Assembly (NCBI RefSeq): GCF_029338395.1 | Contig: NZ_CP119810.1 | Coordinates: 310,001-374,000 of the forward strand | DNA from: Halorussus caseinilyticus | Lineage (GTDB): Archaea; Halobacteriota; Halobacteria; Halobacteriales; Haladaptataceae | DNA: 64,000 nt | Direction: 5' to 3' | Shown here: piece after piece, positions 19,778-47,257 of the stretch | Layout: the number at the start of each line of letters is the position of its first letter | How positions within the stretch are numbered: position 1 is the first letter of the stretch | Notes under the pieces: generated by a model | What the model saw: only the letters and a program-made list of their open reading frames with translations | Database searches by the model: none | Told to the model about the DNA's origin: nothing | Program-made: the position numbers and the translations under genes

Positions 19778-19798
19778 GCAGTTTTCAATGCTTTGTAG

Positions 19799-19812
19799 AC
19801 ATTTTAAATATT
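19799..19812 (-). promoter_or_regulatory. TATA box of PL14-like gene 1
   Basis: Read leftward the region gives AAATATTTAAAATG about 25 nt before the ATG at 19777; a clear haloarchaeal core promoter. Confidence 0.55.
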
Positions 19813-19949
19813 TACCGAAACGTCTCGTTTGGTGTTGGTGAGTTGTGAGGTGCGCACTTTCGTCTAGACGTTTCTCGTCGCTGTCGGACGCCGACCGCCA
19901 GCACAGTTAAGCGCGGAGGAGTCGTACCGCCACGCCGACGCAGGTCAGT

Positions 19950-21062: not shown

Positions 21063-21181
21063 CGACTCCATACCGGACCGTAACTTCCGTGGCGTCGGCG
21101 TCGGTCGCTCGCCCGGGCGTGTAACCGAGGCCCAGATATAAGACGCGCCGTGTGGTTAGCCAATCAACCGACTGGGGGAGA

Positions 21182-22978: not shown

Positions 22979-23088
22979 CCTCGAATCGCGCCGAAACTAT
23001 CTGCACACTTACACCTCTTTTATACGTATTGGAGCCTCTAGCACCGATTACGGCCCAATCGCCGGATGCGACTGGACCGGGAGTAACG

Positions 23089-24207
23089 ATGAAACCGACG
23101 CGACGACGGGTTCTTCTCGGCCTCGGCGCAGTCGTGGGTGGCGGGAGTCTCGCGTACGCCGGACGCGACGGCGAGCGCACGCGGATGGGCGTGCGAGACC
23201 GGGCGACCGACACGGAGCAGACGAGCGAGACCACCGCCGAAGAAGCGACGACGACCGACGCGGAGACCACCACGGAAGAAGCCACCACGACCGAACGCGA
23301 CGTGGAGTTTCCCGATCAGTTCGTTCGGATGTCGTTCGACACCCGCGATTCGCTGGAGAAGTTCACGGAACTCGACGTGACGGAGAACGTCGAAATCGAC
23401 GAGCGCGGCGTCGTCTCCGAGTCGAACTCGCTCCGGGTGACGTTCCCCGAGGGCAGACACTACGGCACGTCGCTTCACTACCGATTCGACGAGGCGGGCT
23501 ACCCCGAACCCGACGAGTTGCACGCGCGCTACTACCTCCGTTTCGCCGAGACGTTCGACCTCTCGCACGGCGGCGGGAAGTTACCCGGACCGTCGGGGAC
23601 CTACGGGCAAGCGGGGTGGGGCGGCCGGGAGGCCGACGGGACGAACGGATGGTCCGCGCGGATGTACTTCCATCCGAGTTACGACGACGACCACCCGATT
23701 CAGCTTTCGAGCTACGTCTATCACGCCGAGATGGGTGGGCCGTACGGTGACATCTTCGAGTGGAACGACTCCGACGCTGGGCGACTGCACGTCGGCAAGT
23801 GGTACCGAATCGATAACTATCTGCGACTCAACACCCCCGGCGAAGACGACGGCGTACTGAAAGGATGGGTGAACGGCGAGCGTGCGCTAGACGTGAGCGA
23901 CCTCCGGTTCCGCGACGTGCCCCGACTTCGAATCGGCGAGTACTGGTTCGACTGCTACTGGGGCGGCGGGTGGCACCCGCCCGCGGACAACCACGTCTAC
24001 TTCGACAAGTTGGCGCTCTTCTCGGAGCGACGGAGACCCAACGACTGGGGCGGCACCGAGACGGGGATGACGCCGCGGCCGGAGACGACGACGCGAGAAG
24101 AGACCGAGGCGACCACCGCAGAGGAAACGACCGCCGGAGGGGGGACCGAGACGACGACCGAGGAGAAAGACACCGAGACGACCGACTCCGCAACCACCGC
24201 GGAGTAG
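23089..24207 (+). CDS. Tat-exported polysaccharide-lyase-14-like protein 2
   Basis: A 372-residue secreted protein. Tat signal TRRRVLLGLGAVVGGG at the N-terminus, then a Thr/Glu-rich linker (residues 41-72). A single PL14-like domain follows (about 75-325) with RVTFPEGRHYG, GGKLPGP at 162-168, NGWSAR at 186-191 and the final VYFDKLALFSE strand. The C-terminus is another Thr/Glu-rich stretch of about 50 residues. It lacks the extra C-terminal beta domains of its paralogue at 18287. It sits between the flippase and a glycosyltransferase, so it probably acts on the glycan made by this locus (editing, release or turnover). The enzymatic activity itself is inferred. Confidence 0.8.
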   Translation: MKPTRRRVLLGLGAVVGGGSLAYAGRDGERTRMGVRDRATDTEQTSETTAEEATTTDAETTTEEATTTERDVEFPDQFVRMSFDTRDSLEKFTELDVTENVEIDERGVVSESNSLRVTFPEGRHYGTSLHYRFDEAGYPEPDELHARYYLRFAETFDLSHGGGKLPGPSGTYGQAGWGGREADGTNGWSARMYFHPSYDDDHPIQLSSYVYHAEMGGPYGDIFEWNDSDAGRLHVGKWYRIDNYLRLNTPGEDDGVLKGWVNGERALDVSDLRFRDVPRLRIGEYWFDCYWGGGWHPPADNHVYFDKLALFSERRRPNDWGGTETGMTPRPETTTREETEATTAEETTAGGGTETTTEEKDTETTDSATTAE

Positions 24208-28855: not shown

Positions 28856-29932
28856 ATGAAGTCGCTCTACCTCGTCCACACGCCGTACCACGTCGTCCTC
28901 GCCAGCGCGCTCGCGGCCACGGACCGCGAGCGCGACGGGTCGGACCGCGAGCGACACCTGCTGAGCGTCCGCGATTCGGACATGTCGGAGTTACTGCGCT
29001 CGCTCGAAGTCGGCGAGGACGTACCCTTCGACCGGATGGAGTCGCTTCCGGGGACGCTGGACACGACCGGACGGCGCGGCGAGGTCCGAAAGAAGGTAAA
29101 CAGCGTGCGCGTCCGGCGGTACGTGAACCGCGAGCGGCCCGACGAGTTCTACTCGTTCAACGACCACCGCCCGGAGTCCCAAGCCGCCTTCGACGCGCTG
29201 AGCGACGACGTGCGCCGGGTCTACGTCGAGGACGGCACCGCCGCCTACGCCCGGTTCCCTCCGGCGGACGAGTGGACCCGCCTCGGCTATCTCAAGGCCA
29301 AACTCTTCTACGGGCCGTGGCGCAGGAACCCCCGAATCCTCGGCACGACCGACTGGATAGACGAGGTGCGGGCCGTCTTCCCCGACCACCTCTTGGCGGA
29401 GTTGCGCGACCGGCCGGTCTCCCGGATACCCCGCGAGTCGGTGCTGTCGCTCGCGGACGCCGACTGGTTCGGCCGCTACGTCGAACGCAACGACGTTGAC
29501 GACGTTCTCGACAGACTCGACGCGCTGGTGTTCGTGACTCACTCGAACTACGTGAACCGGGTCCCGCGCTACGTCGAGACGCTGGAGACGCTGGTGGACC
29601 GCCTGACCGAACGGGGCTACCGCGTCGGCCTGAAGTACCACCCCCGCGAGAGTCGGAAGGCCTTCGAACTCGACAGGGACGACGTGGAAGTCGTCTCCCG
29701 CGGCGTCTCGGCGGAGGTCCTCTACGTCGCGGACCCGACGCTGGACTTCGTGGTGGGCGGGATGTCCACGGCGCTGTTGACCGCCCGGTGGTTGCTGGAC
29801 GACGCCACCGTCGTCTCGCTGACGGAGGTCCTAGACCAGTCGAACCGCGAACTCCCCGAGGTGTTCGAGCGACTGGGCATCCACGTCCCGGAAAATCGCT
29901 CGGCGGTGGGCCAGATTCCGATTCGCCGGTAG
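28856..29932 (+). CDS. Polysialyltransferase-like (GT52/alpha-2,8-polyST-related) protein
   Basis: A 358-residue GT-B-like protein. The N-terminus MKSLYLVHTPYHVVLASALA closely follows the start of bacterial lipooligosaccharide sialyltransferases and polysialyltransferases. The C-terminal half shows VGLKYHPRES (a conserved His-Pro motif of CMP-sialyl enzymes) and a Ser-rich VVGGMSTALLTARWL loop. A CMP-nonulosonate donor is plausible because a CMP-sugar synthetase and NeuB/NeuC-like genes lie 11-18 kb downstream. Assignment rests on N-terminal pattern and context; it could also be an uncharacterised capsule-type glycosyltransferase. Confidence 0.65.
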   Translation: MKSLYLVHTPYHVVLASALAATDRERDGSDRERHLLSVRDSDMSELLRSLEVGEDVPFDRMESLPGTLDTTGRRGEVRKKVNSVRVRRYVNRERPDEFYSFNDHRPESQAAFDALSDDVRRVYVEDGTAAYARFPPADEWTRLGYLKAKLFYGPWRRNPRILGTTDWIDEVRAVFPDHLLAELRDRPVSRIPRESVLSLADADWFGRYVERNDVDDVLDRLDALVFVTHSNYVNRVPRYVETLETLVDRLTERGYRVGLKYHPRESRKAFELDRDDVEVVSRGVSAEVLYVADPTLDFVVGGMSTALLTARWLLDDATVVSLTEVLDQSNRELPEVFERLGIHVPENRSAVGQIPIRR

Positions 29933-33829: not shown

Positions 33830-34975
33830 ATGGCGTCCGAAGCGATGCCAGACGAAATACCGCTGTTCGAGATTTCGTGGGACGGCGGCGAGGTCCGCAA
33901 CGCCGTCGAATCTATCTGTCGCGGGGGGTACTGGGCGAAGGGACCGTACGTGTCGGAGTTCGAGGACCGACTGGAGGAGTATCTCGGGGTCGAACACGCG
34001 ATAACCGTCAACTCCGGCACGACGGCCCTCGAAAGCGCGCTGGTCGCTCACGGCGTCGGACCGGGCGACGAGGTAATCGTCCCCTCGTTCACGTTCGTCG
34101 CCACGGCCAACGTCGTGGAGTTGGTGGGTGCGACACCCGTGTTCGCCGACATCGAGCGCGACACCTACGGACTCGACCCGGAAGCCGTCCGGGACGCAAT
34201 CTCGCCCTCGACGGCCGCCGTCCTGCCGGTCCACCCCTACGGGGCCGCCTGCAAAATCGACCGAATCGTGGAGGTCGCTCGGGAACGCGACGTGACCGTC
34301 GTCGAGGACGCCGCCGAAGCGCTCGGTGCCGACGCCGACGGCCGGATGGTCGGGACGTTCGGCGACAGCGCCGCGCTGAGTTTCTGTCAGAACAAGGTCG
34401 TCGCCACCGGCGAGGGCGGTGCCGTCGTGACCGACGACGACGACGTGGCCGAGCGACTCAGACTGTATCGCTCGCACGGCCGGGTGTCGGGCGACTACTT
34501 CGGGTCGGCCGACAGCGGTCGGTACGTCTCGGCCGGGACGAACTACCGAATGGCGGACGTGGTTGCGGCCATCGGGTGCGCGCAACTCGACAAAATCGAG
34601 CGTCTCGTCGGCGGTCGGCGGCGCGCCGCCGACCGCCTGACCGACGAAATCGGCCGAATCGACGGCATCGAACCCCACACCGGCGACGGGTCCGGTCGGC
34701 ACGTCAACCAACTCTACACCGTGACGCTCGACGATTCCCTCGACAGGGACGCGATTATCGAGACGTTAGCGTCGAAAAACGTCGCCTCGAAGGTGTACTG
34801 GGACCCGCCGGTTCACCGAACCGGCCACTACCGGGAGCGCCACGGGTCGGCGGCCCTGCCCGTCACCGACGACATCTCATCGCGGGTCCTCTCGTTGCCG
34901 ATGTACCCCGAACTGTCGCAGTCGGGGACCGACCACATCGCCGAAGCGGTTCGAGCGGCGGTCGGCAGAGCGTAA
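33830..34975 (+). CDS. PLP-dependent sugar aminotransferase (DegT/DnrJ/EryC1; LegC/PseC-like)
   Basis: A 381-residue type I-fold aminotransferase acting on a 4-keto NDP-sugar with glutamate as amino donor. The Schiff-base Lys189 lies in SFCQNKVVATGEGG, the PLP-ring Asp160 in VVEDAAEALGA, and the phosphate-binding NSGTTALESAL at 61-71. With the dehydratase directly downstream it would make a UDP-4-amino-4,6-dideoxy-N-acetylhexosamine, the first dedicated intermediate of legionaminic- or pseudaminic-type sugars or bacillosamine. The ATG at 33830 is preferred (leaderless); a second ATG 15 nt further is possible. Confidence 0.88.
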   Translation: MASEAMPDEIPLFEISWDGGEVRNAVESICRGGYWAKGPYVSEFEDRLEEYLGVEHAITVNSGTTALESALVAHGVGPGDEVIVPSFTFVATANVVELVGATPVFADIERDTYGLDPEAVRDAISPSTAAVLPVHPYGAACKIDRIVEVARERDVTVVEDAAEALGADADGRMVGTFGDSAALSFCQNKVVATGEGGAVVTDDDDVAERLRLYRSHGRVSGDYFGSADSGRYVSAGTNYRMADVVAAIGCAQLDKIERLVGGRRRAADRLTDEIGRIDGIEPHTGDGSGRHVNQLYTVTLDDSLDRDAIIETLASKNVASKVYWDPPVHRTGHYRERHGSAALPVTDDISSRVLSLPMYPELSQSGTDHIAEAVRAAVGRA

Positions 34976-35048
34976 ACGCGCGAATCGCTCACGACTATCT
35001 CAAACCTTCCCGGAAATTTATTAGCTGTTCTGTGGTACTGCGGTCGGG

Positions 35049-36083
35049 ATGACGGACTTAGAGAACAAACAAGTACTCGTCACTGGGGGGTGCGGGTCGA
35101 TTGGCTCCGAGTTGGTCGAGCGACTGCTCGACTACGAGGAGCCTGCGGTCGTGCGCGTCTTCGACAACGACGAGGCGGGCCTGTTCGACCTGAAGACCAC
35201 ACTCGACTCGGACCGACTTCGATTCCTGCTCGGCGACGTGCGCGACCGAAACCGACTGGAGATGGCGATGGAGGACATCGACGTGGTGTTTCACGCCGCG
35301 GCGCTCAAGCACGTCGGACTCAACGAGTACAACCCCTTCGAGACGGTCCAGACGAACGCGCTCGGGACACAGAACCTCATCCGGGCCGCGATGGAGGAGA
35401 ACGTCGAAGCCTTCGTCACGATAAGCACCGACAAGGCGTCGAACCCGACTTCGGTGATGGGCGCGACGAAACTCCTCTCCGAGCGGTTGACTATCGCCGC
35501 GAATACCTACAAGGGCGAACAGAACACCGAGTTCGGATGCGTCCGGTTCGGCAACGTCTTCGGGTCCAGCGGGTCGGTCGTCCCGCTGTTCCTCGACCAA
35601 ATCAGCGACGGCGGGCCGATGACCGTCACCAACCGGGAGATGACGCGGTTCATCATGCCAATCGAGGAGGCGACCGACTTGGTGTTCGACGCCTACGAGC
35701 GCATGGAGGGCGGCGAGACGTTCGTTCTCAAGATGCCGGTCTTCCGACTGATGGACCTCGCGGAGGCGATGCGGACCGAGTACGCCCCGCAGTTCGGCTA
35801 CGACCCCTCGGAGGTCGAGATTCACAAGACCGGCAAGCGGCCCGGCGAGCGCATCCACGAGAAACTCATCTCGAAGGACGAGATTCAGCAGACGATAGAG
35901 TTAGACGAGATGTTCGTCATCACGCCGCTCATCGAGGACTGCGGCTACGACCCGCTGGACTACGAGAGTCGGAACTCGCTCGACGCCGAGTACACCTCCG
36001 CGGACGTAGACCCGCTCTCGAAGTCCGAGATTATCGCCATGATAGAGAACACGTCGGCCTACGAGACGATGGTCGAGGGGTGA
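35049..36083 (+). CDS. NDP-N-acetylhexosamine 4,6-dehydratase (PseB/LegB/CapD family)
   Basis: A 344-residue extended SDR enzyme. NAD(P)-binding VTGGCGSIGSELV at 11-23 and the catalytic strip STDKASNPTSVMGATK at 126-141. The Tyr of usual SDRs is replaced by Met137 and Lys141 is kept, as in the FlaA1/WbpM-type dehydratases. It converts UDP-GlcNAc to the 4-keto-6-deoxy sugar, feeding the aminotransferase 74 bp upstream. The short soluble form (no membrane domain) matches PseB/LegB rather than the long PglF/WbpM type. Epimerising (PseB) and non-epimerising (LegB) outcomes cannot be separated by eye. Confidence 0.88.
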   Translation: MTDLENKQVLVTGGCGSIGSELVERLLDYEEPAVVRVFDNDEAGLFDLKTTLDSDRLRFLLGDVRDRNRLEMAMEDIDVVFHAAALKHVGLNEYNPFETVQTNALGTQNLIRAAMEENVEAFVTISTDKASNPTSVMGATKLLSERLTIAANTYKGEQNTEFGCVRFGNVFGSSGSVVPLFLDQISDGGPMTVTNREMTRFIMPIEEATDLVFDAYERMEGGETFVLKMPVFRLMDLAEAMRTEYAPQFGYDPSEVEIHKTGKRPGERIHEKLISKDEIQQTIELDEMFVITPLIEDCGYDPLDYESRNSLDAEYTSADVDPLSKSEIIAMIENTSAYETMVEG

Positions 36084-36085
36084 CG

Positions 36086-37045
36086 ATGCAGGTGGTGATG
36101 TACCACTACGTCCGGCCGTCGTCCGACAGGCCGCCCCACGGCTACTACCACCTCGCGCTGGAGGACTTCCGGCGACAGTTGGACCACCTCGAAGCGGAGT
36201 ACGACTTCGTGGACCGCGAGACGTTTCTGGCCTGTGCGACCGGCGACCGGTCGTCAGAAAACGACCGGTCGCCGCCCGACGACGCGGTAGTTCTCACGTT
36301 CGACGACGGGTTGGCCGACCACTACGAGTGGGTCCTGCCCGAACTCCGGTCTCGGGACCTCTTCGGCGTGTTCTTCGTTCCGACCGGACCGCTGGTCGGC
36401 AACGGGGTACTTCCGGTGCATCGCGTCCACTCGCTGGCGGGACGACACGGCGCGACCGAACTCAGAGACGCGCTATTCGACGTGCTTGCGGAAGGCGAGT
36501 TCGCCGACGCGGACGGAGGGACCGTTGGCGACCCCTACGGCGGCCGTTCGACAGACGACGCGCTGACGACGTTCAAGCGCGTCCTCAACTTCGAGGTGCC
36601 CTACGACCGACTCGGCGACGTACTCGACGCGGTGGAGGCGAGCTTTGGGGGCGGACCGAGCGCCGACGACTACTACCTCTCGGGGGACCAACTCCGGCAA
36701 CTCCGCGACGACGGGATGGTGGTCGGTGCCCACTCGGTCGGCCATCCCGTCCTCTCGCGCCTCTCGTCGGCCGACCAGCGTGCCGAGATTGCCTCGTCGT
36801 TCGAGACGCTGGCCGAACGCGTCGGAGGTCTGTCGGCGAGACTGTTCGCGTACCCCTACGGGAGCGACCGGACGTTCACCGACGAGACGAAGAGTCTCCT
36901 CGAAGCGGTCGGGTGTGACGCGGCGTTCACGACGGTTTCCGGTCGTGCGACTCCCGAGCGGTTCCGGAACTCGCGGTTGGCCCTCCCGCGAACGGACTGC
37001 AACGAGTTTCCCCACGGGGGCGCGACGTTCGACCTCTCGCCGTGA
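36086..37045 (+). CDS. Polysaccharide deacetylase (carbohydrate esterase 4-like)
   Basis: A 319-residue NodB-fold enzyme starting 2 nt after the dehydratase stop, so probably translated from the same message. Motif 1 is VVLTFDDGLADHYEW, with Asp-Asp as catalytic base and metal ligand. A later motif is VVGAHSVGHPVLSRL (H-S-x-x-H metal site), followed by LFAYPYGS. It removes N- or O-acetyl groups from a polysaccharide or lipid-linked sugar. No signal peptide is visible, so it probably acts on cytoplasmic precursors. An insertion of about 80 residues between the first two motifs is larger than usual. Confidence 0.85.
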   Translation: MQVVMYHYVRPSSDRPPHGYYHLALEDFRRQLDHLEAEYDFVDRETFLACATGDRSSENDRSPPDDAVVLTFDDGLADHYEWVLPELRSRDLFGVFFVPTGPLVGNGVLPVHRVHSLAGRHGATELRDALFDVLAEGEFADADGGTVGDPYGGRSTDDALTTFKRVLNFEVPYDRLGDVLDAVEASFGGGPSADDYYLSGDQLRQLRDDGMVVGAHSVGHPVLSRLSSADQRAEIASSFETLAERVGGLSARLFAYPYGSDRTFTDETKSLLEAVGCDAAFTTVSGRATPERFRNSRLALPRTDCNEFPHGGATFDLSP

Positions 37046-37235
37046 CCCCCTAACCCCGGACTATCTATCGTAACAGAATTGTCAATTATATGGTAAGTAT
37101 AAGTGGGTGGGTGTCGTGCCTCTGGTTGGACAATATGCGAAATCCGGTTAGGAGTATCCGAATTAACAGTCGTAGGGGGACAACTACGGTCAGCGAGTCC
37201 GACGGGGGGCCGTCCGGTCGGGGGGTGAGTGGGTC

Positions 37236-38240
37236 GTGAAGACGTTCCACGGAAAGCCGGTGGACCCGCGGGAATTCAAGCACCGGGACCTCTCGAATCT
37301 CCGAGAGCGAGTCTCGGCCAAGCGCCAGCGTGCCCGCGAGTTCCGCGAGCGAGCGAACGTCGAGGTGGAAGAGTGCTACGTCTGCGGTTCGACCGAGACC
37401 GACATCGTGCGCGAGATGTTCGGCTACGAGTACGCCCAGTGTGACCACTGCTCGCACGTCTACCAGACGCCGCGACTCCCGGACGACGTTCTCAACGAGT
37501 ACTACGAGACCGACACCGAGTTCGCCAGCATCTACACCGACGAGGACCAAATCCAGTACCGACTGGAGAACATCACCAAGCCGAAAATCGACTTCGTGTT
37601 GGACCACGTAGACGCCGAGCAAGGTCGATGGCTGGACGTGGGGTGTGGCGTCGGTGCATCCATCAACTACCTCGAATCGCAGGGGTGGGACGCCGTCGGT
37701 CTCGAAATCAGCGACCAGTGCGTCTCGGTCGCGCGCGACGTTCTCGGCGTCGAACTCGAACAGCGACCGATAGACGAGTACGCCGACCGCAACCCCGACG
37801 CGACGTTCGACGTGGTGACGTTCTTCGGCTATCTGGAGATGGTACCTCACTCGATGCGTGACCTCCGACTGGCCCACGAGATGCTGGACCCGGACGGGAA
37901 CGTCGGTATCGGCGTGATGAACGCCGACTCGATGTCCTCGATGGTCCACCGGGCGATACCCGAGCAGGCGGTCCGCCACTCGATTCCGCCCGTCGGCCTC
38001 CAGCAGTTCACCAGAGAGTCCGTCGCGGAAGCGTTCGACCGCGTGGGGTTCTCGCCGGAGGCGGCGTGGTTCTTCGGACTGGACTTCTACGAACTGCTCA
38101 CCCACCTCTGTCTCGAAGTCGAGGACTTCCAGCACTCGGACCTCTACGAGTACCTGATGGAGAACCTCAACGACTTCCAGCAGGTGATAGACGACGACGA
38201 AGAGAGCGACTACATGGTGTTCGTCGGCGACCGGGAGTGA
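37236..38240 (+). CDS. SAM-dependent methyltransferase with N-terminal zinc-knuckle
   Basis: A 334-residue protein. Four cysteines (CYVC near residue 48 and CDHC near 69) form a zinc knuckle like that of sugar C-methyltransferases. The class I Rossmann fold follows with LDVGCGVGASINYLES (about 131-147) and an Asp-containing DVVTFFGYLEM strand. Such proteins methylate NDP-sugars or lipid-linked sugars. Start GTG 37236. It lies after a 190-bp gap from the deacetylase, and a loosely AT-rich stretch (about 37065-37110) in that gap may separate the transcripts. Target unknown. Confidence 0.82.
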   Translation: MKTFHGKPVDPREFKHRDLSNLRERVSAKRQRAREFRERANVEVEECYVCGSTETDIVREMFGYEYAQCDHCSHVYQTPRLPDDVLNEYYETDTEFASIYTDEDQIQYRLENITKPKIDFVLDHVDAEQGRWLDVGCGVGASINYLESQGWDAVGLEISDQCVSVARDVLGVELEQRPIDEYADRNPDATFDVVTFFGYLEMVPHSMRDLRLAHEMLDPDGNVGIGVMNADSMSSMVHRAIPEQAVRHSIPPVGLQQFTRESVAEAFDRVGFSPEAAWFFGLDFYELLTHLCLEVEDFQHSDLYEYLMENLNDFQQVIDDDEESDYMVFVGDRE

Positions 38241-38611
38241 GCGTTTCGGGGCGTGAGACCGGATTCGACTACCCGCTCTCCGCCGCGAACGCTCGGCGGA
38301 CCGGACCACGAGCGAACGCTCGGCCGACCAACCGACGGGATTCGCCCAGCGCGACGAACTACCGTGGGCGGGGGCTTTCGAGGACTTCTTCGTCGCAGTT
38401 CCTGCGGTAGCTGTAGCGGTGCGGGAATTCCGGGAACCGTACGACTTCATCGACACCGACCACTGCCGTCGGATTACTCACACCGCACAGCACTACAACC
38501 GCGACCACCAGCGTCGGACCGACGAAACCGCAGAAGCGAACCGCCACGGCAACCACATCATCCCCGCATCTCGCCCGAACTATTTTCCCGCGGTACGGTG
38601 AGAAGCGACGT
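38241..38611. other. Gap with repeated GCGAACGCTCGG motif and family tail
   Basis: Contains two tandem-like copies of GCGAACGCTCGG[C/G][C/G]GACC (about 38285-38335) and GGGCGGGGGCTTTCGAGG at 38366-38383, which is exactly the reverse complement of 59847-59864. An ACTATTTTCCC box near 38580 is the probable promoter of the SDR gene. No credible gene. Confidence 0.65.
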
Positions 38612-39388
38612 ATGGGGGGCGCATTCGACCTGTCGGACAGCATCGCAGTCGTCGCCGGAGGTGCGGGACTCATCGGGACCGCGCTCTGCGAGGGACTCGC
38701 CGACCACGGCGCGACGGTCGTCGTCGCGGACGCCGCGGTAGAACGGGGCGAAGCACTCGCGGACGAACTCGGAGAGCGCGCGGAGTTCTGTCGCGTCGAT
38801 ATAACCGACGAGGATTCCGTGGTCGGGTTGGTAGAGACGGTGCTGGACCGCCACGGACGCATCGACGCGTTCGTCAACTGCTCGTACCCGCGAAACGAGA
38901 ACTACGGGCGGCGCTACGAGGACGTGACCGCCGCGGACTTCCGCGAGAACGTGGAACTCCACCTCGATAGCTACTTCGTAGCCGCTCGCGCCGTCTCGCG
39001 GGCAATGATGGACCAACCCGACGGCGGGAGCATCGTGAACTTCGGGTCGACCTACGGCGTGCAGGCCCCGGACTTCTCGGTGTACGAGGGCACCGAGATG
39101 ACCAGTCCCGTCGAGTATTCGGCCATCAAGGGCGGCATCTTGAACCTGACGCGCTACATGGCGTCGTATCTCGGCGAACACGGCGTCCGCGTGAACGCGG
39201 TCAGTCCCGGCGGCGTGTTCGACGACCAGCACCCTGAGTTCGTGGACCGCTACGAGGACCGGACCCCGTTGGGCCGGATGGCGACCCCAGAGGACTTCGA
39301 GGGGGCCGTCGTCTATCTGGCGTCCGACGCCTCGCGGTACGTCACCGGCCACAACCTCGTGGTGGACGGCGGGTGGACGATTTGCTGA
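38612..39388 (+). CDS. Short-chain dehydrogenase/reductase (PtmA-like) 1
   Basis: A 258-residue classical SDR. Cofactor motif GGAGLIG near residue 14, Ser in VNFGSTYGVQ and catalytic YSAIK; the C-terminus YVTGHNLVVDGGW is standard for the class. It is clearly paralogous to the SDR at 40539. Similar SDRs (PtmA-type) accompany nonulosonic-acid clusters in bacteria and are thought to modify the sugar acid or its precursor. The redox substrate cannot be told from the sequence. Confidence 0.87.
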   Translation: MGGAFDLSDSIAVVAGGAGLIGTALCEGLADHGATVVVADAAVERGEALADELGERAEFCRVDITDEDSVVGLVETVLDRHGRIDAFVNCSYPRNENYGRRYEDVTAADFRENVELHLDSYFVAARAVSRAMMDQPDGGSIVNFGSTYGVQAPDFSVYEGTEMTSPVEYSAIKGGILNLTRYMASYLGEHGVRVNAVSPGGVFDDQHPEFVDRYEDRTPLGRMATPEDFEGAVVYLASDASRYVTGHNLVVDGGWTIC

Positions 39389-39835
39389 CGGCGGAGAGGG
39401 GCCTGAGACACTTTCTCAATCCTTAAAACAATATTTATAATTGTTTTAGAATTGTATAGGTTTCTCTAATACGGACGCGACTTCGGCAGTCGCCGGTCCG
39501 CGACCGACTCGCCGTCGCCTACGTCCGAGGTCGAACCGGCCGGGGTTTACACTAGCGACGCTCTCGTCACCCCGAACATCGGAGATTTTCGACGACAGCG
39601 GGGCGACCGGGGGACTTTCGAGGAAGACTCCGGGTCTCCGACCCCTGCAGTGCCGTCACTGGCGACTCCGGTCACGACGACCGAGACAGCGACGACTCCG
39701 AGGACGACCACCGAACCAATCAGCACAGCGACCGCACAGCACCGCGATTCCCGAACCCCCTGATTCCCGCCCACGACCCCGCAGACCGCCCTGAACAGTT
39801 ATACGGGACGCTATTGAACCAGCACCGGGGGTCAG
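39389..39835. other. AT-rich island and GC region before the cytidylyltransferase gene
   Basis: An AT-rich stretch at about 39405-39470 (containing ACAATATTTATAATTGTTTTAG) follows the SDR. The remainder is GC-rich with one weak minus-strand reading frame (listed separately). A GTTATAC box at about 39798-39805 precedes ATG 39836 by about 30 nt. Confidence 0.6.
39547..39774 (-). CDS. Possible small membrane peptide (weak candidate)
   Basis: A 75-residue frame with GTG start and one strongly hydrophobic segment (AVAVLIGSVVVLGVVAVSVVVTG, residues about 14-36) after a basic N-terminus, resembling a membrane-anchored or pilin-like N-terminus. Third-position GC is lower than in neighbouring genes. 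The only TATA-like box (about 39799-39806) may instead serve the plus-strand gene. Could be spurious. Confidence 0.25.
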   Translation of the reverse strand: MGGNQGVRESRCCAVAVLIGSVVVLGVVAVSVVVTGVASDGTAGVGDPESSSKVPRSPRCRRKSPMFGVTRASLV

Positions 39836-40546
39836 ATGATAGACGACAAGCGGGTAGTCGCCGCAGTCCCCGCCCGTGGGGGAAGTACGACAGTACCGAA
39901 CAAGAATCGCCGGTCGCTGGCGGGCAAACCGCTGGTCGCGTGGCCGATAGACGTGGCCGCCGAGACGCCCGAAATCGACCGGACCGTCGTGACGACCGAC
40001 GACGACGACATCGCTTCGACGGCGCGCGAGTGGGGTGCGGAGGTGGTCGAGAGACCCGACTCGCTGGCCGAAGACGACTCGCTGGTGGTGGACGCCCTCC
40101 GGCACCTCGTCGGCGAACTCCGCGCGGAGGGTGAGACGGCCGAGTACATGGTGATGCTCGAACCGACGTGTCCGCTCCGGACGCCCGGCGACGTGCGCCG
40201 GTGTCTGGACCGCCTCGCAGACCCGTCGGCCGACTACGACTCGGTGGCGACGTTCACCGAAGCGGACCCGAGTCCACACCGACTCTGGGACATCCGCGAC
40301 GGCGAACCGGAACCGTTCGTGGAGGGGGCCGACCCGTGGCTCCCCCGGCAGGAGCAACCCGACGGCTACGAACTCACCGGCGCGGTGTACGCCTTCGAAA
40401 TCGACCGCCTGCCCGAGGAGGGGACCGGCCTGCTGTTCGGCGAGGCGGGCGCGGTCACGATGCCCCGCGAGCGAGCGGTGGACATCGACACGGAGTTCGA
40501 CTTCGGACTCGCGGAACTGCTACTGGAGGAAGGTATCCATGAGTGA
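39836..40546 (+). CDS. CMP-nonulosonate cytidylyltransferase (NeuA/LegF/PseF-like)
   Basis: A 236-residue nucleotidyltransferase that activates a sialic-acid-like sugar with CTP. The signature VPARGGSTTVPNKN (residues 11-24) is the CMP-NeuAc synthetase nucleotide loop. Other conserved features are LEPTCPLRTPGDV, ELTGAVYAF and the C-terminal VDIDTEFDFGLAE (Asp metal ligands). The last 8 nt overlap the following SDR gene, so the two are cotranscribed. With NeuB- and NeuC-like enzymes at 44-47 kb it completes the core of a nonulosonic acid pathway. Confidence 0.88.
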   Translation: MIDDKRVVAAVPARGGSTTVPNKNRRSLAGKPLVAWPIDVAAETPEIDRTVVTTDDDDIASTAREWGAEVVERPDSLAEDDSLVVDALRHLVGELRAEGETAEYMVMLEPTCPLRTPGDVRRCLDRLADPSADYDSVATFTEADPSPHRLWDIRDGEPEPFVEGADPWLPRQEQPDGYELTGAVYAFEIDRLPEEGTGLLFGEAGAVTMPRERAVDIDTEFDFGLAELLLEEGIHE

Positions 40547-41363
40547 ACCCGAAGACGGAACGATTTGGGACCTGTTCGACCTGACCGGACGAGTCGCCGT
40601 CGTGACCGGCGGCCCGGGCAAACTCGGGTCCCAGATGTGCGACGCGCTGGCCGAGGCGGGCGCGAACGTCGTGGTCGCCTCCCGGACCTACGAGGACTGC
40701 CGGGAGAAAGCCGACGAACTCACCGACCGCTACAACGAGGCGATGGCCGTCTCGGTGGACGTGACCGACGAGCAAGCGGTCGAGGAGATGGTCGAAGAAG
40801 TCGTAGACCGGTTCGGCAAGATAGACGTGCTGGTCAACAACGCGTACAACGCCAGCGGCTACGGCGTCCCGTTCGAGGAGTTGACCAGAGACGAGTGGGA
40901 GCAGACGCTCGAAGGCGTCCTGACCCAGACGTTCTTCTGCTCGCAGGCGGCGCTCCCGGCCATCCGCGAGAGCGACGCCGGTACCATCATCAACATCGGG
41001 AGTCACTACAGCGTCGTCGCGCCCGACCACCGCGTCTACGGCGACAGCGACATCAACAACCCGCCGACCTACGGGTCGGCGAAGGCGGGCGTCATCCAGT
41101 TCAGTCGGTGGCTGGCGTCGTATCTCGCAAGCGAGGGGATTCGGGTCAACTCCGTCAGTCCCGGCGGGTTCTACAGCGAGGAGATGGAGGACGTGGAGGA
41201 CTACGAAGAGGTGTTCGTCCCGAACTACGAACACCGGACGCCGCTGGGTCGGATGGGCGACGACACCGACATGAAGGGCATCGTGGCCTACCTCGCCTCC
41301 GACGCCAGTAAGTGGATGACCGGCCAGAACATCGTCCTCGACGGGGGGTGGACGGTGTGGTAG
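40539..41363 (+). CDS. Short-chain dehydrogenase/reductase (PtmA-like) 2
   Basis: A 274-residue SDR, paralogue of the one at 38612. Cofactor motif GGPGKLG near residue 25, NNAYNASGYG in place of NNAG, Ser in INIGSHYSVV, catalytic YGSAK, and C-terminus MTGQNIVLDGGWTVW. It overlaps the cytidylyltransferase upstream by 8 nt and the oxidoreductase downstream by 7 nt: a tight operon. A role in tailoring the nonulosonic acid or a precursor is inferred from position. Confidence 0.87.
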   Translation: MSEPEDGTIWDLFDLTGRVAVVTGGPGKLGSQMCDALAEAGANVVVASRTYEDCREKADELTDRYNEAMAVSVDVTDEQAVEEMVEEVVDRFGKIDVLVNNAYNASGYGVPFEELTRDEWEQTLEGVLTQTFFCSQAALPAIRESDAGTIINIGSHYSVVAPDHRVYGDSDINNPPTYGSAKAGVIQFSRWLASYLASEGIRVNSVSPGGFYSEEMEDVEDYEEVFVPNYEHRTPLGRMGDDTDMKGIVAYLASDASKWMTGQNIVLDGGWTVW

Positions 41364-42343
41364 ACGACCTCGATTTGGGAATCGTCGGCGTGAGTCCGGG
41401 CAACGGACACCCCTACTCGTTCGCGTCCATCGTCAACGGCTATTCGGACGAGGGGTTCGAGCGGACCGACTGGGGGGTCATCCACGACTACCTCCGGGAG
41501 AAGGACGCCTCGGAGTTCGGCTTTCCCGGCGTGCGCGTCACCCACGCGTGGACCCAAGACGACGCCGAGACCGACCGACTCCGCGAGGCGGCCCGAATCC
41601 CGAACGCCGCTCCGGACCTCGAATCGCTCGGCGACGCGGTGGACGCCGTAATCGTCGCCCGCGACGACTACGAGACCCACGCCGAGATGGTCCTGCCGTT
41701 GCTCGAACGCGGGATTCCCGTGTTCTGCGACAAGCCGCTGACGATGGACCCCGGAGAACTCGCCGACTTCCGGCCCTACCTCGAACGCGGCCAGTTGATG
41801 TCCTGTTCGGGGATGCGATACGCCCAAGCCCTCGACGAACCCCGAGCGCACACCGACCGGTTCGGCCGCATCGAACTCGTTCGCGGCACGGTCATCAACG
41901 ACTGGCCGAAGTACGGCGCGCACATGCTAGACGCCATCTTCGGCGTCTTAGACCAGCGTCCGGTCGCCGTCGAGACGGCGACCGGCGGGGACGTTTCGGA
42001 GGGGCACCCTGCGGAGGGGGATGCCGCGGACCGGGACGCCGCGAACGGACACACCTCGGCCGCGATTCGGATGGACGGCGGAACGCTCGTGCAGGTCGAT
42101 ACCTTGGGCGACGTGCCGATGACCTTCTCGGTGGAGTTCTACGGCACCGAGCGGACCGGTCGCTACGACCTCCGGGACAACTTCACCGCGTTCCGGCGCA
42201 CCCTCTGGCGGTTCGTGGAGACGGTCCGGTCGGGCGACCCGGCGCTGGACCCCGACGAGACGCTGGACGTGGTTCGCACCCTTATCGCCGGTCGCATCGC
42301 GGACAGAGAGGACAGGCGGGTCTCGCTGGACGAGGTGACGTGA
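41357..42343 (+). CDS. Gfo/Idh/MocA-family oxidoreductase
   Basis: A 328-residue NAD(P)-dependent sugar oxidoreductase. N-terminal Rossmann start LDLGIVGVSPGNGHPYSF. The family's catalytic Lys is in VFCDKPLTMD (the EKP-type motif), followed by the substrate-domain beta sheet. An insertion rich in Asp/Ala/Gly (about residues 212-235, DNA about 41990-42055) is unusual. GTG 41357 overlaps the SDR stop by 7 nt. Family members act on NDP-sugars or cyclitols; here the substrate is probably a nonulosonate precursor. Confidence 0.82.
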   Translation: MVDDLDLGIVGVSPGNGHPYSFASIVNGYSDEGFERTDWGVIHDYLREKDASEFGFPGVRVTHAWTQDDAETDRLREAARIPNAAPDLESLGDAVDAVIVARDDYETHAEMVLPLLERGIPVFCDKPLTMDPGELADFRPYLERGQLMSCSGMRYAQALDEPRAHTDRFGRIELVRGTVINDWPKYGAHMLDAIFGVLDQRPVAVETATGGDVSEGHPAEGDAADRDAANGHTSAAIRMDGGTLVQVDTLGDVPMTFSVEFYGTERTGRYDLRDNFTAFRRTLWRFVETVRSGDPALDPDETLDVVRTLIAGRIADREDRRVSLDEVT

Positions 42344-42348
42344 CTGGC

Positions 42349-43071
42349 ATGACCGACCCGACCGAAGTCGTCTTCCTCGGCGCGAACAACGTCGGCCGCG
42401 AGGTGTACGACTGGCTCTGCGACCGCGAGTCGGTGGCGGTCCGGGCGATGCTGACCGAGGCCGACCAGTTGTCGCTCGTCGCGGACCTCGAACCCGAGGT
42501 TGTGGTCGCGGTGGGGTTCCAGCACATCGTCCCGCCCGAGATTCTGGCGGTGCCCGAGAAGGGGTGTCTCAACCTCCACCCGGGCCTGCTCCCCGAGACG
42601 AGAGGCTTCAACCCGAACGTCTGGAGCATCGTGGAGGGCCACCCCGCCGGGGCGACGCTCCACTACATGGACGACGGCGTGGACACCGGCGACGTAATCG
42701 CCCGCGAGCGCGTCGAAAAGCGCTTCGACGACACCGGCCGGGACCTCTACGAGCGCCTCGAACGCGCCTGCTTCGAGGTGTTCACCGAGGCGTGGCCCGA
42801 CGTGGAATCGGGCACCGTCGAGACCGAACCGCAGGACGACGACCGGGCGACCACCCACCGAAAGCGCGAGTTCACGGACCTCTGCGAACTCGACGCAGAC
42901 GCCGAGTACACCGTGAAAGAACTGCTCGACCGACTCCGGGCGCTGACGTTCCCGCCGTTCGACAACGCCCGAATCGAGGTGGACGGCGAGACGTACTTCG
43001 TGGACGTGGACGTGCGCCACGAGGACGACGCCGACGAGGACGCCGAGTTCGGGTCGCTGTCGTCGTACTGA
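42349..43071 (+). CDS. Sugar N-formyltransferase-like protein 1
   Basis: A 240-residue N10-formyltetrahydrofolate-dependent formyltransferase. The catalytic Asn-His-Asp set is intact: N and H in CLNLHPGLLPETRG and D in DDGVDTGDVI. In glycan loci such enzymes N-formylate 4-amino sugars (VioF, WlaRD) or ArnA substrates, producing NHCHO groups. ATG 42349 is used; a GTG at 42340, overlapping the previous stop, would add three residues and couple translation. The C-terminal part after residue 170 resembles the Fmt C-terminal region in reduced form, ending in an acidic tail. Confidence 0.85.
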   Translation: MTDPTEVVFLGANNVGREVYDWLCDRESVAVRAMLTEADQLSLVADLEPEVVVAVGFQHIVPPEILAVPEKGCLNLHPGLLPETRGFNPNVWSIVEGHPAGATLHYMDDGVDTGDVIARERVEKRFDDTGRDLYERLERACFEVFTEAWPDVESGTVETEPQDDDRATTHRKREFTDLCELDADAEYTVKELLDRLRALTFPPFDNARIEVDGETYFVDVDVRHEDDADEDAEFGSLSSY

Positions 43072-43136
43072 CGGCGGCGTACTCGACGGTCCGAGCTCGC
43101 TCGCGCTCGCGCGAAACATCATATATAATGCTCGAA

Positions 43137-43169
43137 GCGCGGGCCGAGCGCACGGCGCTCGGCCCGCGC
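43137..43169. terminator. Palindrome between convergent formyltransferase genes
   Basis: Arms 43137-43151 and 43155-43169 (15 nt, loop ACG), next to a short AT-rich patch (43116-43130). It lies between two gene ends, so a 3' end role is possible. Confidence 0.5.
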
Positions 43170-43194
43170 GGACCCGTTTTCGCCGATGCTCCCG

Positions 43195-44139
43195 CTACGA
43201 CCGTCTGTCGCGGGCGTTCTCGAACCGGTCGCCCACTTCCACGTCGAACCGCTCTACCAGTTCGCCCGCCGGAATCTCGTCGCCGTCGCCGACCTGCAAG
43301 CGAGTGAGTTCGACGCTCCCCTCCCACGCGCCGACCGCGAGGGTATCCCCTTCCCGGTGGAGAATCTCACCCGGTCGGCAGAACGCCGACTCGTCGTCCG
43401 GCGGGTTCGCGGCCCAGATTGTGACGCGGTGGTCGTTCACGAACGAGAACGCGCCGGGGTAGGGATGCGTCTGACCCCGAATCCAGTCGTACACCTCGCC
43501 GGGCGGCCGGGTCCAGTCCACGAGTCCGTGGTCGGGCGTGCGCTTGGGCCACCACGTCGCGGCGTCGTCGTCCTGCGGTCGCCGGGGGACCGCGCCGTCC
43601 TCGAACTGGGGGTAGTAGGTCCGAATCAGGTCGCGCCCGGCCGCAACCACCTTCTCGTAGAGGGTTGCGGCGTCGTCCTCGCGGTCGATTTCGATGGGGT
43701 GCTGGCCCACCAAGTCACCGGCGTCGGCCTCCTCGACCAGATGGAAAAACGAGAGCGCGGTCCGGTCGAGACCCTTGACGAGACTCCACGCGATTGGCGC
43801 GCGGCCACGGCCCCGCGGGAGCGGTGCGGGGTGCATCCCGAGCGCCGCGACTTCGGGAATGTCGAGGACCTCCTGCTTCACGAGGCGCGACCACCCGACG
43901 ACGAACAGCAGGTCCGGGTCGCAGTCGGCGATTCGCCCGCGGGACGGGTCGTCGTTGACCGATTCGGTCTCGTGGAGCGGAACGCCCCGGTCGTCGGCGA
44001 ACGCCGCCAAGTCGGTCTGGTCGGCGATGTCCTCGCGCCGAGGCCGGGTGAAGATTCCCCGGATGTCCGCGCCGAGCGCGTCCAGTTCCTCCAAGCAGGC
44101 CAACCCGAGGTCGTTGTGCGTGACGAAGACGACTCGCAT
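43195..44139 (-). CDS. Formyltransferase-like protein 2 (Fmt/ArnA-type)
   Basis: A 314-residue protein with the methionyl-tRNA-formyltransferase fold. N-terminus MRVVFVTHNDLGLACLEEL. The catalytic loop reads LGMHPAPLPRGRGRAP, keeping His but with Gly-Met where Asn-x-His is normal. DAGDLVGQHPI supplies the Asp. The C-terminal OB-like domain is complete (about 205-314), as in ArnA/PmrI and Fmt. The missing Asn equivalent makes catalysis uncertain. It is read against its neighbours and starts divergently from neuB. Distinct enough from formyltransferase 1 to act on another amine or acceptor. Confidence 0.8.
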   Translation of the reverse strand: MRVVFVTHNDLGLACLEELDALGADIRGIFTRPRREDIADQTDLAAFADDRGVPLHETESVNDDPSRGRIADCDPDLLFVVGWSRLVKQEVLDIPEVAALGMHPAPLPRGRGRAPIAWSLVKGLDRTALSFFHLVEEADAGDLVGQHPIEIDREDDAATLYEKVVAAGRDLIRTYYPQFEDGAVPRRPQDDDAATWWPKRTPDHGLVDWTRPPGEVYDWIRGQTHPYPGAFSFVNDHRVTIWAANPPDDESAFCRPGEILHREGDTLAVGAWEGSVELTRLQVGDGDEIPAGELVERFDVEVGDRFENARDRRS

Positions 44140-44187
44140 GCCCACCGCCACGACGCCGACCCGCTTGAATCTCGGGGACGACGAAGA

Positions 44188-44196
44188 ACCTATAGG
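44188..44196 (+). promoter_or_regulatory. TATA box of the neuB-like gene
   Basis: ACCTATAGG centred about 27 nt before ATG 44219 indicates a leaderless transcript starting the neuB-PIG-L-neuC operon. Confidence 0.5.
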
Positions 44197-44218
44197 GAGA
44201 AACGTTGCTGTACACTCC

Positions 44219-45355
44219 ATGCGTTCGTTTCGAGACGTGGTGGACGACCCCGAATCGGCGTACTTCGTCGCGGAAGCGGGAGTCAACCACAACGGGGAGG
44301 TGGAGATGGCCGAACGACTGGTCGAGGTGGCCGCCGAGAGCGGGGCCGACGCCGTGAAGTTCCAGACGTTCGCGGCCGACAGGTTGGTGACCGAGAGCGC
44401 GCCGAAGGCCGACTATCAGGACGAGACCACCGACGACCGGTCCCAGTACGAGATGCTGGAGAACTACGAACTGTCGCGGGCCGACCACGAACACCTGCAG
44501 GACTACTGCGACGACCGCGGGATTACGTTCCTCTCGACGCCGTTCGACGCCCGGAGCGCCGACCTGCTGGCCGACCTCGGAGTGCCGGTGTTCAAAATCG
44601 GGTCGGGCGAACTCGACAACTACCCCCTACTCGAACACGTCGCCGAGTTCGACACGCCGATGGTCGTGAGTACCGGGATGGGGACCTTGGACGAGGTGCG
44701 CGAGGCGTTCGAGGCGATTCGGTCGGCGAACCCGGACGTGCCGCTGGTCTTTCTCCACTGCACGTCGGCGTACCCGACCGAGATGGCCGACGCCAACCTG
44801 CGGGCGATGGGGACGATGGACGAGGAACTCCCGGTGCCGGTGGGCTACTCAGACCACACCACGGCCCCCGAGACGCCCGCCTTCGCGGTCGCGGCGGGCG
44901 CGACTGTCGTGGAGAAGCACTTCACGCTGAGCAAGCGCCTTCCGGGTCCGGACCACCGGGCGTCGCTGGAACCCGACGAACTCGACCGGGCGGTGTCGCT
45001 GGTCCGGGAGGCGGCCACCGCGATGGGGAGTCCCGAGAAGGTCCCGACCGACGAGGAACGAGAGAACCGGTCGGTCATCCGAAAGAGCCTCCACGCCGCC
45101 GAGCGCGTCGAATCGGGCGAGTCGCTGACCCGCGAGAACGTCGCCGTCACCCGGCCCGCGGACGGGGTGGCCCCGCGACACTACGAGGCGGTCGTCGGCG
45201 GGCGCGCGCGCGAGACCTTAGACCCCGGCGAGGCGATTACCGCCGACGCGGTGGACGTTGAGGTGGACGCCGAGGGAGACCCCGAGATGGAGACGCGGGC
45301 GGACGGTCCCCCGGCGAGCGAGACGGCCGAGAGCGGGGGTGAGCGGAGTGAGTAG
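44219..45355 (+). CDS. neuB: Nonulosonic acid synthase (NeuB/LegI/PseI family)
   Basis: A 378-residue enzyme that condenses phosphoenolpyruvate with a six-carbon amino sugar to give a nine-carbon sialic-acid-like sugar. The TIM barrel begins FVAEAGVNHNGEVEMAERLVE. Active-site features are ADAVKFQTF, KIGSGELDN, STGMGTLDEV and VVEKHFTLSK. A C-terminal SAF/antifreeze-like lid domain (about residues 285-350) is present, as in true NeuB. The final 25 residues are an acidic tail. First gene of an operon with PIG-L (overlapping) and neuC. Whether the product is sialic, legionaminic or pseudaminic acid cannot be read directly. Confidence 0.92.
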   Translation: MRSFRDVVDDPESAYFVAEAGVNHNGEVEMAERLVEVAAESGADAVKFQTFAADRLVTESAPKADYQDETTDDRSQYEMLENYELSRADHEHLQDYCDDRGITFLSTPFDARSADLLADLGVPVFKIGSGELDNYPLLEHVAEFDTPMVVSTGMGTLDEVREAFEAIRSANPDVPLVFLHCTSAYPTEMADANLRAMGTMDEELPVPVGYSDHTTAPETPAFAVAAGATVVEKHFTLSKRLPGPDHRASLEPDELDRAVSLVREAATAMGSPEKVPTDEERENRSVIRKSLHAAERVESGESLTRENVAVTRPADGVAPRHYEAVVGGRARETLDPGEAITADAVDVEVDAEGDPEMETRADGPPASETAESGGERSE

Positions 45356-46031
45356 CGCGGGCGAGCGGACCGTCCTCGCGGTGGCGGCCCATCCGGACGA
45401 CGAGGTGCTTGGCGCTGGCGGGACGCTCTCGAAGCACGCCGACGCGGGCCACGAGGTTCACGTCCTCGTCGTGACCGAGGGCGCGACCCAGCAGTACGAC
45501 GACGAGTCGCTGGTGGCCCAGAAGCGCCGGGAGACCGAGGCCTGTGCCCGCCGACTCGGGGTCTCGGAGGTCCACTTCGGCGACCTTCCGGACATGCGTC
45601 TGGACGACGTACCACACGTCGAGGTCAACGCCGTCGTGGAGGAGGCAGTCGAGCAGTACCGGCCCGAAGTCGTCTACACCCACTCCGACCGGGAGGTCAA
45701 CGCCGACCACCGCGCGCTCTACGACTCGACGCTGGTGGCGACCCGGCCGGGGTCTGGCGTCGAGCGAGTGCTGGCCTACGAGGTGCCGTCTTCGACCGAC
45801 TGGACCGGCGGGGACCGACCCCAGTTCGCACCGAACGTCTACGTCGATGTTTCGGACCACCTCGACGCCAAAGTCGAGGCGTTCGCCGAGTACGAGTCCG
45901 AAACCCGCGAGTTTCCGCACCCGCGCTCGGCCGAGAGCCTGCGCGCTCGCGCCCGGACGCGAGGGGCCGCCGCGGGCGTCGAGGCGGCCGAGGCGTTCAG
46001 CCTCGTCAGGGAGGTGCGCGAGTCGGTATGA
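45348..46031 (+). CDS. PIG-L family N-deacetylase
   Basis: A 227-residue LmbE/PIG-L zinc deacetylase. The metal motif AHPDDE lies near the N-terminus, and VYTHSDREVNADH supplies the second-site His residues. Family members remove N-acetyl groups from GlcNAc derivatives (GlcNAc-PI, bacillithiol and mycothiol precursors) or act on sugar nucleotides. Placed between neuB and neuC, with overlaps on both sides (start inside the neuB end, ATGA with neuC), it very likely acts on a pathway intermediate, exposing an amine that could then be formylated. The start GTG 45348 is the best of two close GTG codons. Confidence 0.85.
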   Translation: MSSAGERTVLAVAAHPDDEVLGAGGTLSKHADAGHEVHVLVVTEGATQQYDDESLVAQKRRETEACARRLGVSEVHFGDLPDMRLDDVPHVEVNAVVEEAVEQYRPEVVYTHSDREVNADHRALYDSTLVATRPGSGVERVLAYEVPSSTDWTGGDRPQFAPNVYVDVSDHLDAKVEAFAEYESETREFPHPRSAESLRARARTRGAAAGVEAAEAFSLVREVRESV

Positions 46032-47257
46032 CGGGGGAGAGAGGCGACGCGACGAGGCGCGGTGACGACGCCGACACCGGCGGTTCGGGGGCCGACGACG
46101 GCGACGAGCGAGTCGTCGCCGTCGTCACCGGGACTCGGGCGGAGTACGGTCTGCTCCAGTCCTCGATGGCGGCGATACGCGACACCGAGGGGGTGGCGCT
46201 CCGAACCGTCGCCACCGGGATGCACCTCTCGCCCGAACACGGCAACACCGTCGAGGAGATTCGGGCCGACGGCTTCGACGTGACCGAGACGGTCCACACG
46301 CTGGTCGCGGGCGACACGGGTCTCTCGATGGCGAAGTCGCTCGGTCTCGGCACCGAGGGGGTGGCCGAGGCGCTGGGGAGCATCGACCCCGACGTGGTGC
46401 TGGTCCTCGGGGACCGCGACGAGGCGCTGGCGGCGGGTCTCGCGGCGGCGCACATGAACGTCCCCGTCGCGCACGTCCACGGCGGCGACTCGATGCACGG
46501 CGCGATAATCGACGACAGCATCAGGCACGCCCTCACGAAGTTCGCTCACCTCCACTTCCCCGTCTCGGAGAAGAGCGCCGAGCGCGTGCGCAACCTCGGC
46601 GAGGAGGAGTGGCGCGTCACCACGGTCGGCGCGCCGGGTCTCGACGCGGTGCTGGACGGCGAGTACGCCGACCCCGAGTCGGTGGTCTCGAAGTACGGTC
46701 TCGACGCGGACGGACCGCTCGCGCTCGTGGTCCAGCATCCGGTCACGACGATGCCCGACGCGGCGGGCGACCAGATGCGGGCCACGCTGGAGGCCGTCAC
46801 CGACGCGGGCGCTCGCCCGGTCGTGGTCTACCCCAACTCCGACGCGGGCGGCCGCCGGATGATAGCCGTCATCGACGAGTTCGCGGCCGAGCGCGGCATC
46901 CGGACGTTCGATAGCCTCCCGCGCGCGGACTACCTCGGCCTGATGGCCGCCGCGGACGCGATGGTCGGCAACTCCAGTAGCGGCGTCATCGAAGCGCCGT
47001 CGTTCGACCTGCCCGTCGTGGACGTGGGACCGCGACAGGAGGGCCGCGAGCGCGCGGACAACACGATTTCGGTGCCACACGACCGCGAGCGGATACGCGA
47101 GGCCGTCGAGCGCGCGCTGACCGACGAGTCGGTCCGACGGCGCGCCGCCGAGTGCGAAAACCCCTACGACTACGGCGGGGCGGGCGAGCGCATCGCCGAG
47201 CGTCTGGCGTCGGTCGAACTCGGCGAGAACCTGCTCCGGAAGCGACTGGCGTTTTGA
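46028..47257 (+). CDS. neuC: Hydrolysing UDP-GlcNAc-type 2-epimerase (NeuC/LegG-like)
   Basis: A 409-residue GT-B-fold epimerase that releases UDP while inverting C2, giving the ManNAc-type substrate of NeuB. Conserved: VTGTRAEYGLL (about 33-43), LVLGDRDEAL, VAHVHGGDSMHGAIIDDSIRHALTK, LALVVQHPVTT and NSSSGVIEAPSF. The first 30 residues are a low-complexity charged extension. ATG overlaps the PIG-L stop (ATGA). Together with neuB it marks a nonulosonic acid pathway. Confidence 0.9.
   Translation: MTGERGDATRRGDDADTGGSGADDGDERVVAVVTGTRAEYGLLQSSMAAIRDTEGVALRTVATGMHLSPEHGNTVEEIRADGFDVTETVHTLVAGDTGLSMAKSLGLGTEGVAEALGSIDPDVVLVLGDRDEALAAGLAAAHMNVPVAHVHGGDSMHGAIIDDSIRHALTKFAHLHFPVSEKSAERVRNLGEEEWRVTTVGAPGLDAVLDGEYADPESVVSKYGLDADGPLALVVQHPVTTMPDAAGDQMRATLEAVTDAGARPVVVYPNSDAGGRRMIAVIDEFAAERGIRTFDSLPRADYLGLMAAADAMVGNSSSGVIEAPSFDLPVVDVGPRQEGRERADNTISVPHDRERIREAVERALTDESVRRRAAECENPYDYGGAGERIAERLASVELGENLLRKRLAF

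Follow-up and report, generated by a model that had tools for sequence, protein, structure and literature searches.

The window is a 64,000-nucleotide stretch of the genome of Halorussus caseinilyticus (labelled G000; 4.39 Mb); the contig on which it lies, G000:C2, is 427 kb long. The genes considered here are given below in their order on the window. G181 (H. salinisoli, same genus), G203 and G205 are genomes of the comparison set.

28856..29932, + strand: PF07388 (GT38-like) protein, candidate CMP-nonulosonate transferase (Pfam 3.7e-11).
33830..34975, + strand: LegC-like C4 aminotransferase of the DegT family (Pfam DegT 4.5e-115); linked to NeuB/NeuC in related clusters.
35049..36083, + strand: UDP-GlcNAc 4,6-dehydratase, short Polysacc_synt_2 (Pfam 7.5e-100), with a PglF/WbpM-type STDKASNPTSVMGATK motif.
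36080..37045, + strand: NodB-type polysaccharide deacetylase; its start overlaps the dehydratase stop by 4 bp.
37236..38240, + strand: SAM methyltransferase, possible sugar methylation; conserved in G181, G203 and G205.
38612..39388, + strand: SDR1, PtmA-like short-chain dehydrogenase (PtmA model 178 bits, cut-off 350).
39836..40546, + strand: predicted CMP-nonulosonate synthetase, divergent member of the LegF/PseF superfamily (CTP_transf_3, PF02348, 2.9e-18).
40539..41363, + strand: SDR2, second short-chain dehydrogenase; 8 bp overlap with the CMP synthetase.
41312..42343, + strand: Gfo/Idh/MocA oxidoreductase; gene order compared with that of Plesiomonas.
42349..43071, + strand: FT1, WbtJ/PseJ/VioF-like sugar N-formyltransferase with N_formyltrans_C (start corrected to 42349).
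43195..44133, - strand: FT2, ArnA-like formyltransferase (start corrected to 44133), counterpart of HrrPV6_1050.
44219..45355, + strand: LegI, NeuB-type nonulosonate synthase (Pfam NeuB 4.8e-89, SAF domain).
45339..46031, + strand: PIG-L de-N-acetylase, metal motifs HPDDE and HSDREVNADH (start corrected to 45339).
46028..47257, + strand: LegG, NeuC-type hydrolysing 2-epimerase (Epimerase_2 1.2e-81); its start overlaps the PIG-L stop by 4 bp.

The aminotransferase, 4,6-dehydratase, CMP-sugar synthetase, NeuB and NeuC genes are all intact ORFs that match their Pfam families and lie where the original prediction had placed them; the formyltransferases and the PIG-L gene that it mentioned are real. 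A NeuB, a nucleotide-removing enzyme and a CMP synthetase, which together make up the general nonulosonic acid set, are all encoded. It had also been claimed that every legionaminic family except LegH is represented. This holds for NeuB (TIGR03569, 423 bits, cut-off 399.65; PseI model, 283 bits) and NeuC (TIGR03568, 401 bits, cut-off 235.9); LegB, LegC and LegF are represented only at superfamily level, because the cut-offs of the specific NCBIfam models are not passed. The aminotransferase scores 267 bits with PseC and 259 with LegC (cut-offs 420 or more), the dehydratase 328 with PseB (cut-off 407.75) and 68 with LegB (cut-off 475), and the CMP synthetase 107 with PseF (cut-off 205.7). Close relatives of this synthetase were found only in G181, G203 and G205 among the compared clusters.

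The dehydratase carries TDK...Mx3K, with Met where PseB and FlaA1 have Tyr. The motif table of PMC8987622 gives this motif for two of the C5-retaining enzymes, PglF and WbpM. It was rejected as a discriminator between Leg and Pse: PseI/SpsE-like clusters carry it too, so that alone it cannot tell the two apart. No ortholog of the window dehydratase was found in G203 and G205 at E 1e-30, despite their very similar cassettes. In G203, an apparent fusion of a CBS domain and an extended SDR (L105:6561-7985) lies beside the aminotransferase gene and is a possible dehydratase substitute.

TIGR03569 NeuB is present in 51 of the 293 genomes sampled from the order; the NeuB neighbourhoods of 47 genomes and of the window were compared with the window proteins. 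In a collection of named genomes, NeuB matches were found only in Halorussus salinisoli (strain LT46, the closest, 88% identical) and one Rhodospirillales MAG. The neighbourhoods sort into three kinds. Type A (n=14, the window and 13 others) has a high-scoring NeuB, nearly always a high-scoring NeuC and, in most cases, the aminotransferase and dehydratase close by, so that these four genes co-occur in most type A clusters. Type B has the aminotransferase and dehydratase and lacks NeuC; in one such cluster an epimerase-like SDR (L054:7322-8302) lies between the two. Type C is the remainder; most of these clusters combine NeuB and a CMP synthetase with a NeuC of lower score.

The phylogeny of NeuB that had been proposed as a check was built; its reference branches are long, and Campylobacter/Legionella LegI and Kdo8P synthase are not among the references. 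Type A and G173 form one clade (support 99/99), which unites the window NeuB with the LegI type of Halorubrum sp. PV6, an enzyme tested experimentally (PMC6137143), apart from Neisseria NeuB and Campylobacter PseI. With TIGR03569 passed, this places the window protein among the nonulosonate synthases, as predicted; a position away from them had been named beforehand as refuting. G173 has NeuC; the aminotransferase is not nearby and the dehydratase ortholog is absent. Type B groups with C. jejuni PseI and B. subtilis SpsE, and eight type C sequences with Neisseria NeuB. Type B was not taken as simply pseudaminic, because SpsE, which joins it, is required for legionaminic acid (PMC7439481).

The legionaminic precedent in PV6, cited in the original prediction, is correct: formylated legionaminic acid has been reported on an archaeal glycoprotein (PMC6137143). 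The sugar is 5-N-formyl-legionaminic acid, with one formyl group placed at N-5 according to that paper; the reported mass step of 302.1 Da is consistent, by calculation, with one formyl and one acetyl group. One locus of the comparison set (L040) is taken as the PV6-type locus, because it contains exact 20-base matches to the gene-start parts of the published legI and legF forward primers (chance expectation 0), exactly where its NeuB gene and its CMP synthetase gene begin. Its order (aminotransferase, dehydratase, LegF, NeuC, FT2, NeuD; PIG-L and NeuB on the opposite strand) agrees with the published one, FT2 corresponding to HrrPV6_1050 (953 bp; a predicted formyltransferase in PMC6137143) and NeuD to HrrPV6_1051 (629 bp). 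The authors assigned LegH to HrrPV6_1014; HrrPV6_1051 (annotated NeuD) would be a better candidate, since the LegH of Plesiomonas is itself NeuD-like (PMC4481668).

The window shares with the PV6 type the NeuB clade, NeuC, the aminotransferase, the dehydratase, FT2 and PIG-L (PMC6137143; L040). The PV6-type locus encodes the acetyltransferase NeuD but lacks FT1; in the window FT1 is present and NeuD absent. The window has in addition a divergent CMP synthetase, two SDRs, the Gfo/Idh oxidoreductase, the methyltransferase, the NodB deacetylase and the PF07388 protein. As in Campylobacter jejuni and Plesiomonas shigelloides (PMC4481668), LegF, LegI, LegG and LegC functions are predicted; as in bacterial legionaminic clusters, a PtmA-like SDR lies beside LegF and an oxidoreductase in the vicinity. 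Unlike these clusters, the window has FT1, probably in LegH's stead, a dehydratase without a match to the LegB model and no PtmE-type nucleotidyltransferase in the core.

The absence of LegH was rightly noted: no NeuD, LbH or LegH acetyltransferase gene was found in the cluster. The only full-length NeuD-family gene of the genome (C1:2562730) lies outside the locus, next to an FdtA-like cupin and a DegT gene (both identified by eye) in what is probably a 3-amino-sugar pathway; it was rejected as LegH for its neighbourhood. FT1 keeps the catalytic Asn-His-Asp triad (N-x-H and D). It shares family, N-x-H...D motif and N_formyltrans_C domain with the PseJ, WbtJ and VioF formyltransferases and groups with the type B FT1s, on the PseJ/WbtJ side of the tree; its context, however, is NeuB/NeuC.

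Within type A, an FT1-type formyltransferase without an acetyltransferase was found in six clusters (G000, G181, G203, G205, G021 and G155; those of G021 and G155 are distant relatives). NeuD is found in G052, G103, G058, G108, G257 and G113, and another LbH acetyltransferase in G071 and G010; none of these eight has FT1 in the operon (Fisher p = 3e-4, the genomes being treated as independent though not fully so). G113 has a relative of FT1 about 9 kb from NeuB, closest to a different aminotransferase. The 'NeuD' matches between NeuC and NeuB in L041 and L043 were not accepted as NeuD; they correspond to a different, shorter LbH acetyltransferase. The alternation suggests that FT1 probably replaces LegH in the window. 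The suggestion that the gene set may be a variant is upheld, with FT1 probably standing in for LegH and a dehydratase of the PglF/WbpM motif; because a formyltransferase sits in LegH's place, the window is counted as a legionaminic pathway only as a variant.

PIG-L enzymes take the N-acetyl group off C-2 of GlcNAc derivatives. In the 16 whole genomes searched, FT2 orthologs (>170 bits) were found in six (G000, G181, G203, G205, G052 and G243); each of the six clusters concerned, five of them type A, also holds a PIG-L ortholog. PIG-L occurs without FT2 in G103, whose cluster carries a transposase-like ORF, and in G058, where it lies on another contig. The association within type A gives Fisher p = 0.003, with genomes treated as independent. 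The FT2-less legionaminic cluster of G103 (L042) contains, besides the transposase-like ORF, a fragment of a truncated NeuC (within 17377-17781) together with another NeuC that is divergent. In FT2, Gly replaces the catalytic Asn of ArnA-type formyltransferases (G-M-H for N-x-H), and His and Asp are kept; the same change is found in the FT2 of the PV6-type locus, and the catalytic Asn is missing throughout the FT2s. No formyltransferase other than FT2 was found in the PV6-type locus. A deacetylase is nowhere mentioned in the text of PMC6137143, and among the papers searched none was found that ties PIG-L to nonulosonic acids.

Among the accessory genes, the NodB-type deacetylase is a conserved neighbour in G181, G203 and G205, and an SDR1-type gene lies close to NeuB in most type A clusters. 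The Gfo/Idh/MocA oxidoreductase possibly stands in for PtmF. The NodB deacetylase, like the methyltransferase and the dehydrogenases, may modify the product further.

The PF07388 protein, encoded just outside the coordinates originally considered, is probably a nonulosonate transferase, as judged from its motifs, predicted fold and distribution. Its motifs EDG, KYHPRE and ST are invariant in six relatives; PMC2169525 describes EDG and HP as functional motifs. It gives a weak profile match (2e-4) to the polysialyltransferase SiaD (5wcn). Its predicted fold is GT-B (pLDDT 81, pTM 0.85), with polysialyltransferases as top matches (5wc6, Z 20.7; 5wcn, E 2.4e-11) and other GT-B enzymes only slightly lower. 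It thus shares the D/E-D/E-G and HP motifs and the GT-B fold with these GT38 structures but is archaeal, not bacterial, and only 13% identical over the structural alignment. PF07388 is found in 9 of the 293 genomes of the order, and all nine have NeuB (hypergeometric 8e-8; 0.001 when counted by genus), in each case within about 20 kb of PF07388.

Glycosyltransferases, a sulfatase, PL14-like lyases and an ABC exporter are encoded upstream of the cassette. Positions 10119 to 24207 of the window, which hold the sulfatase, the lyases, the exporter and a glycosyltransferase, make up a surface polysaccharide region. In PV6, aglB lies in the same region as the leg genes, whereas the AglB-like STT3 gene of the window's genome is on another contig; the acceptor may for this reason be an exopolysaccharide or other glycan rather than an AglB N-glycan. 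In L055 and L056 (G114 and G176), the genes that flank the window's cassette (GINT1_N, membrane protein, GT2, PF07388) accompany a PseI/SpsE-like NeuB cassette in place of the legionaminic one, an apparent case of cassette exchange at one glycan locus. In L037 and L083 (G181, H. salinisoli), the NeuB-PIG-L-NeuC and PF07388-GINT1_N blocks have swapped ends relative to the window.

In the proposed pathway, the dehydratase would convert UDP-GlcNAc to its 4-keto-6-deoxy derivative and the DegT aminotransferase would add the 4-amine. FT1 would N-formylate this amine, the site acetylated by LegH, whose nitrogen would become N-7. At some stage of the pathway, PIG-L would deacetylate the nitrogen that stood at C-2 (the later N-5) and FT2 would formylate the nitrogen so freed. 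NeuC would catalyse hydrolysis and 2-epimerisation, NeuB condensation with PEP, the CMP synthetase activation of the nonulosonic acid, and the PF07388 protein transfer of the CMP-activated sugar.

A legionaminic acid with a single formyl group would result if FT1 acted at N-7 and FT2 were inactive or used another substrate, or if FT2 acted and FT1 served another sugar. The missing Asn of FT2, the one formyl group of the PV6 sugar and the FT1-type gene of L035 (G021), found without PIG-L and FT2, are consistent with this. It is nevertheless rather unlikely, given that FT2 and PIG-L are kept together in their six clusters and that the PV6 sugar is formylated although the PV6-type cluster has FT2 as its sole formyltransferase found. 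An improbable arrangement is that of two pathways in one locus, NeuC, NeuB and the CMP synthetase leading to Neu5Ac and the aminotransferase, dehydratase and FT1 to a 4-formamido-4,6-dideoxyhexose. In most genomes, NeuB and NeuC of this type are linked with the aminotransferase and dehydratase, two genes that are absent where NeuC scores about 170-200 bits and NeuB groups with Neisseria NeuB; moreover, PV6, with the same core genes, produces formyl-Leg. The passed NeuB and NeuC models do, however, bear Neu5Ac-pathway names, G173 has NeuB and NeuC of the same type with no aminotransferase or dehydratase nearby, and the LegI and LegF of PV6 were assayed with ManNAc and Neu5Ac only (PMC6137143).

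Synthesis of a pseudaminic-type acid by way of an inverting dehydratase and a formyltransferase like PseJ is very improbable. PseC, PseB and PseF are the top specific models for the aminotransferase, dehydratase and CMP synthetase (all under cut-off) and FT1 is similar to PseJ; but the NeuB stands apart from PseI in the tree and scores far higher with the NeuB model than with the PseI model, and the dehydratase carries Met at the position of the PseB/FlaA1 Tyr. Hydrolysing epimerases of the NeuC type belong to the Neu and Leg pathways and not to the Pse pathway, and the window encodes one.

Legionaminic-type synthesis is the best reading of the gene content. It is fairly probable that the locus makes a CMP-activated legionaminic-type acid that is probably transferred to a surface glycan; since FT1 occupies LegH's place and PIG-L is paired with FT2, 5,7-di-N-formyl-legionaminic acid is the predicted product. 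Calculated residue masses are 288.096 Da for the di-formyl sugar, 302.111 Da for a sugar with a single formyl group (a value shared by a di-formyl sugar bearing one methyl), 316.127 Da for the di-acetyl form and 291.095 Da for Neu5Ac. The complete scheme (PIG-L/FT2 exchange at N-5, FT1 for LegH at N-7, archaeal PF07388 transfer from CMP, di-N-formyl product) is more tentative and is rated slightly short of an even chance. Cells would display the sugar at their surface.

Archaeal legionaminic synthesis was already known (PMC6137143); new here are the alternation of FT1 with an acetyltransferase, the pairing of PIG-L with FT2 and the PF07388 transferase candidate. PIG-L with FT2, FT1 and the PF07388 protein are candidates for the formyl source and the transferase, two points left open by that study. 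The finding of the same flanking glycan genes around a different nonulosonate cassette in two congeneric species hints at surface-sugar switching, which may be relevant to viruses that recognise such sugars.
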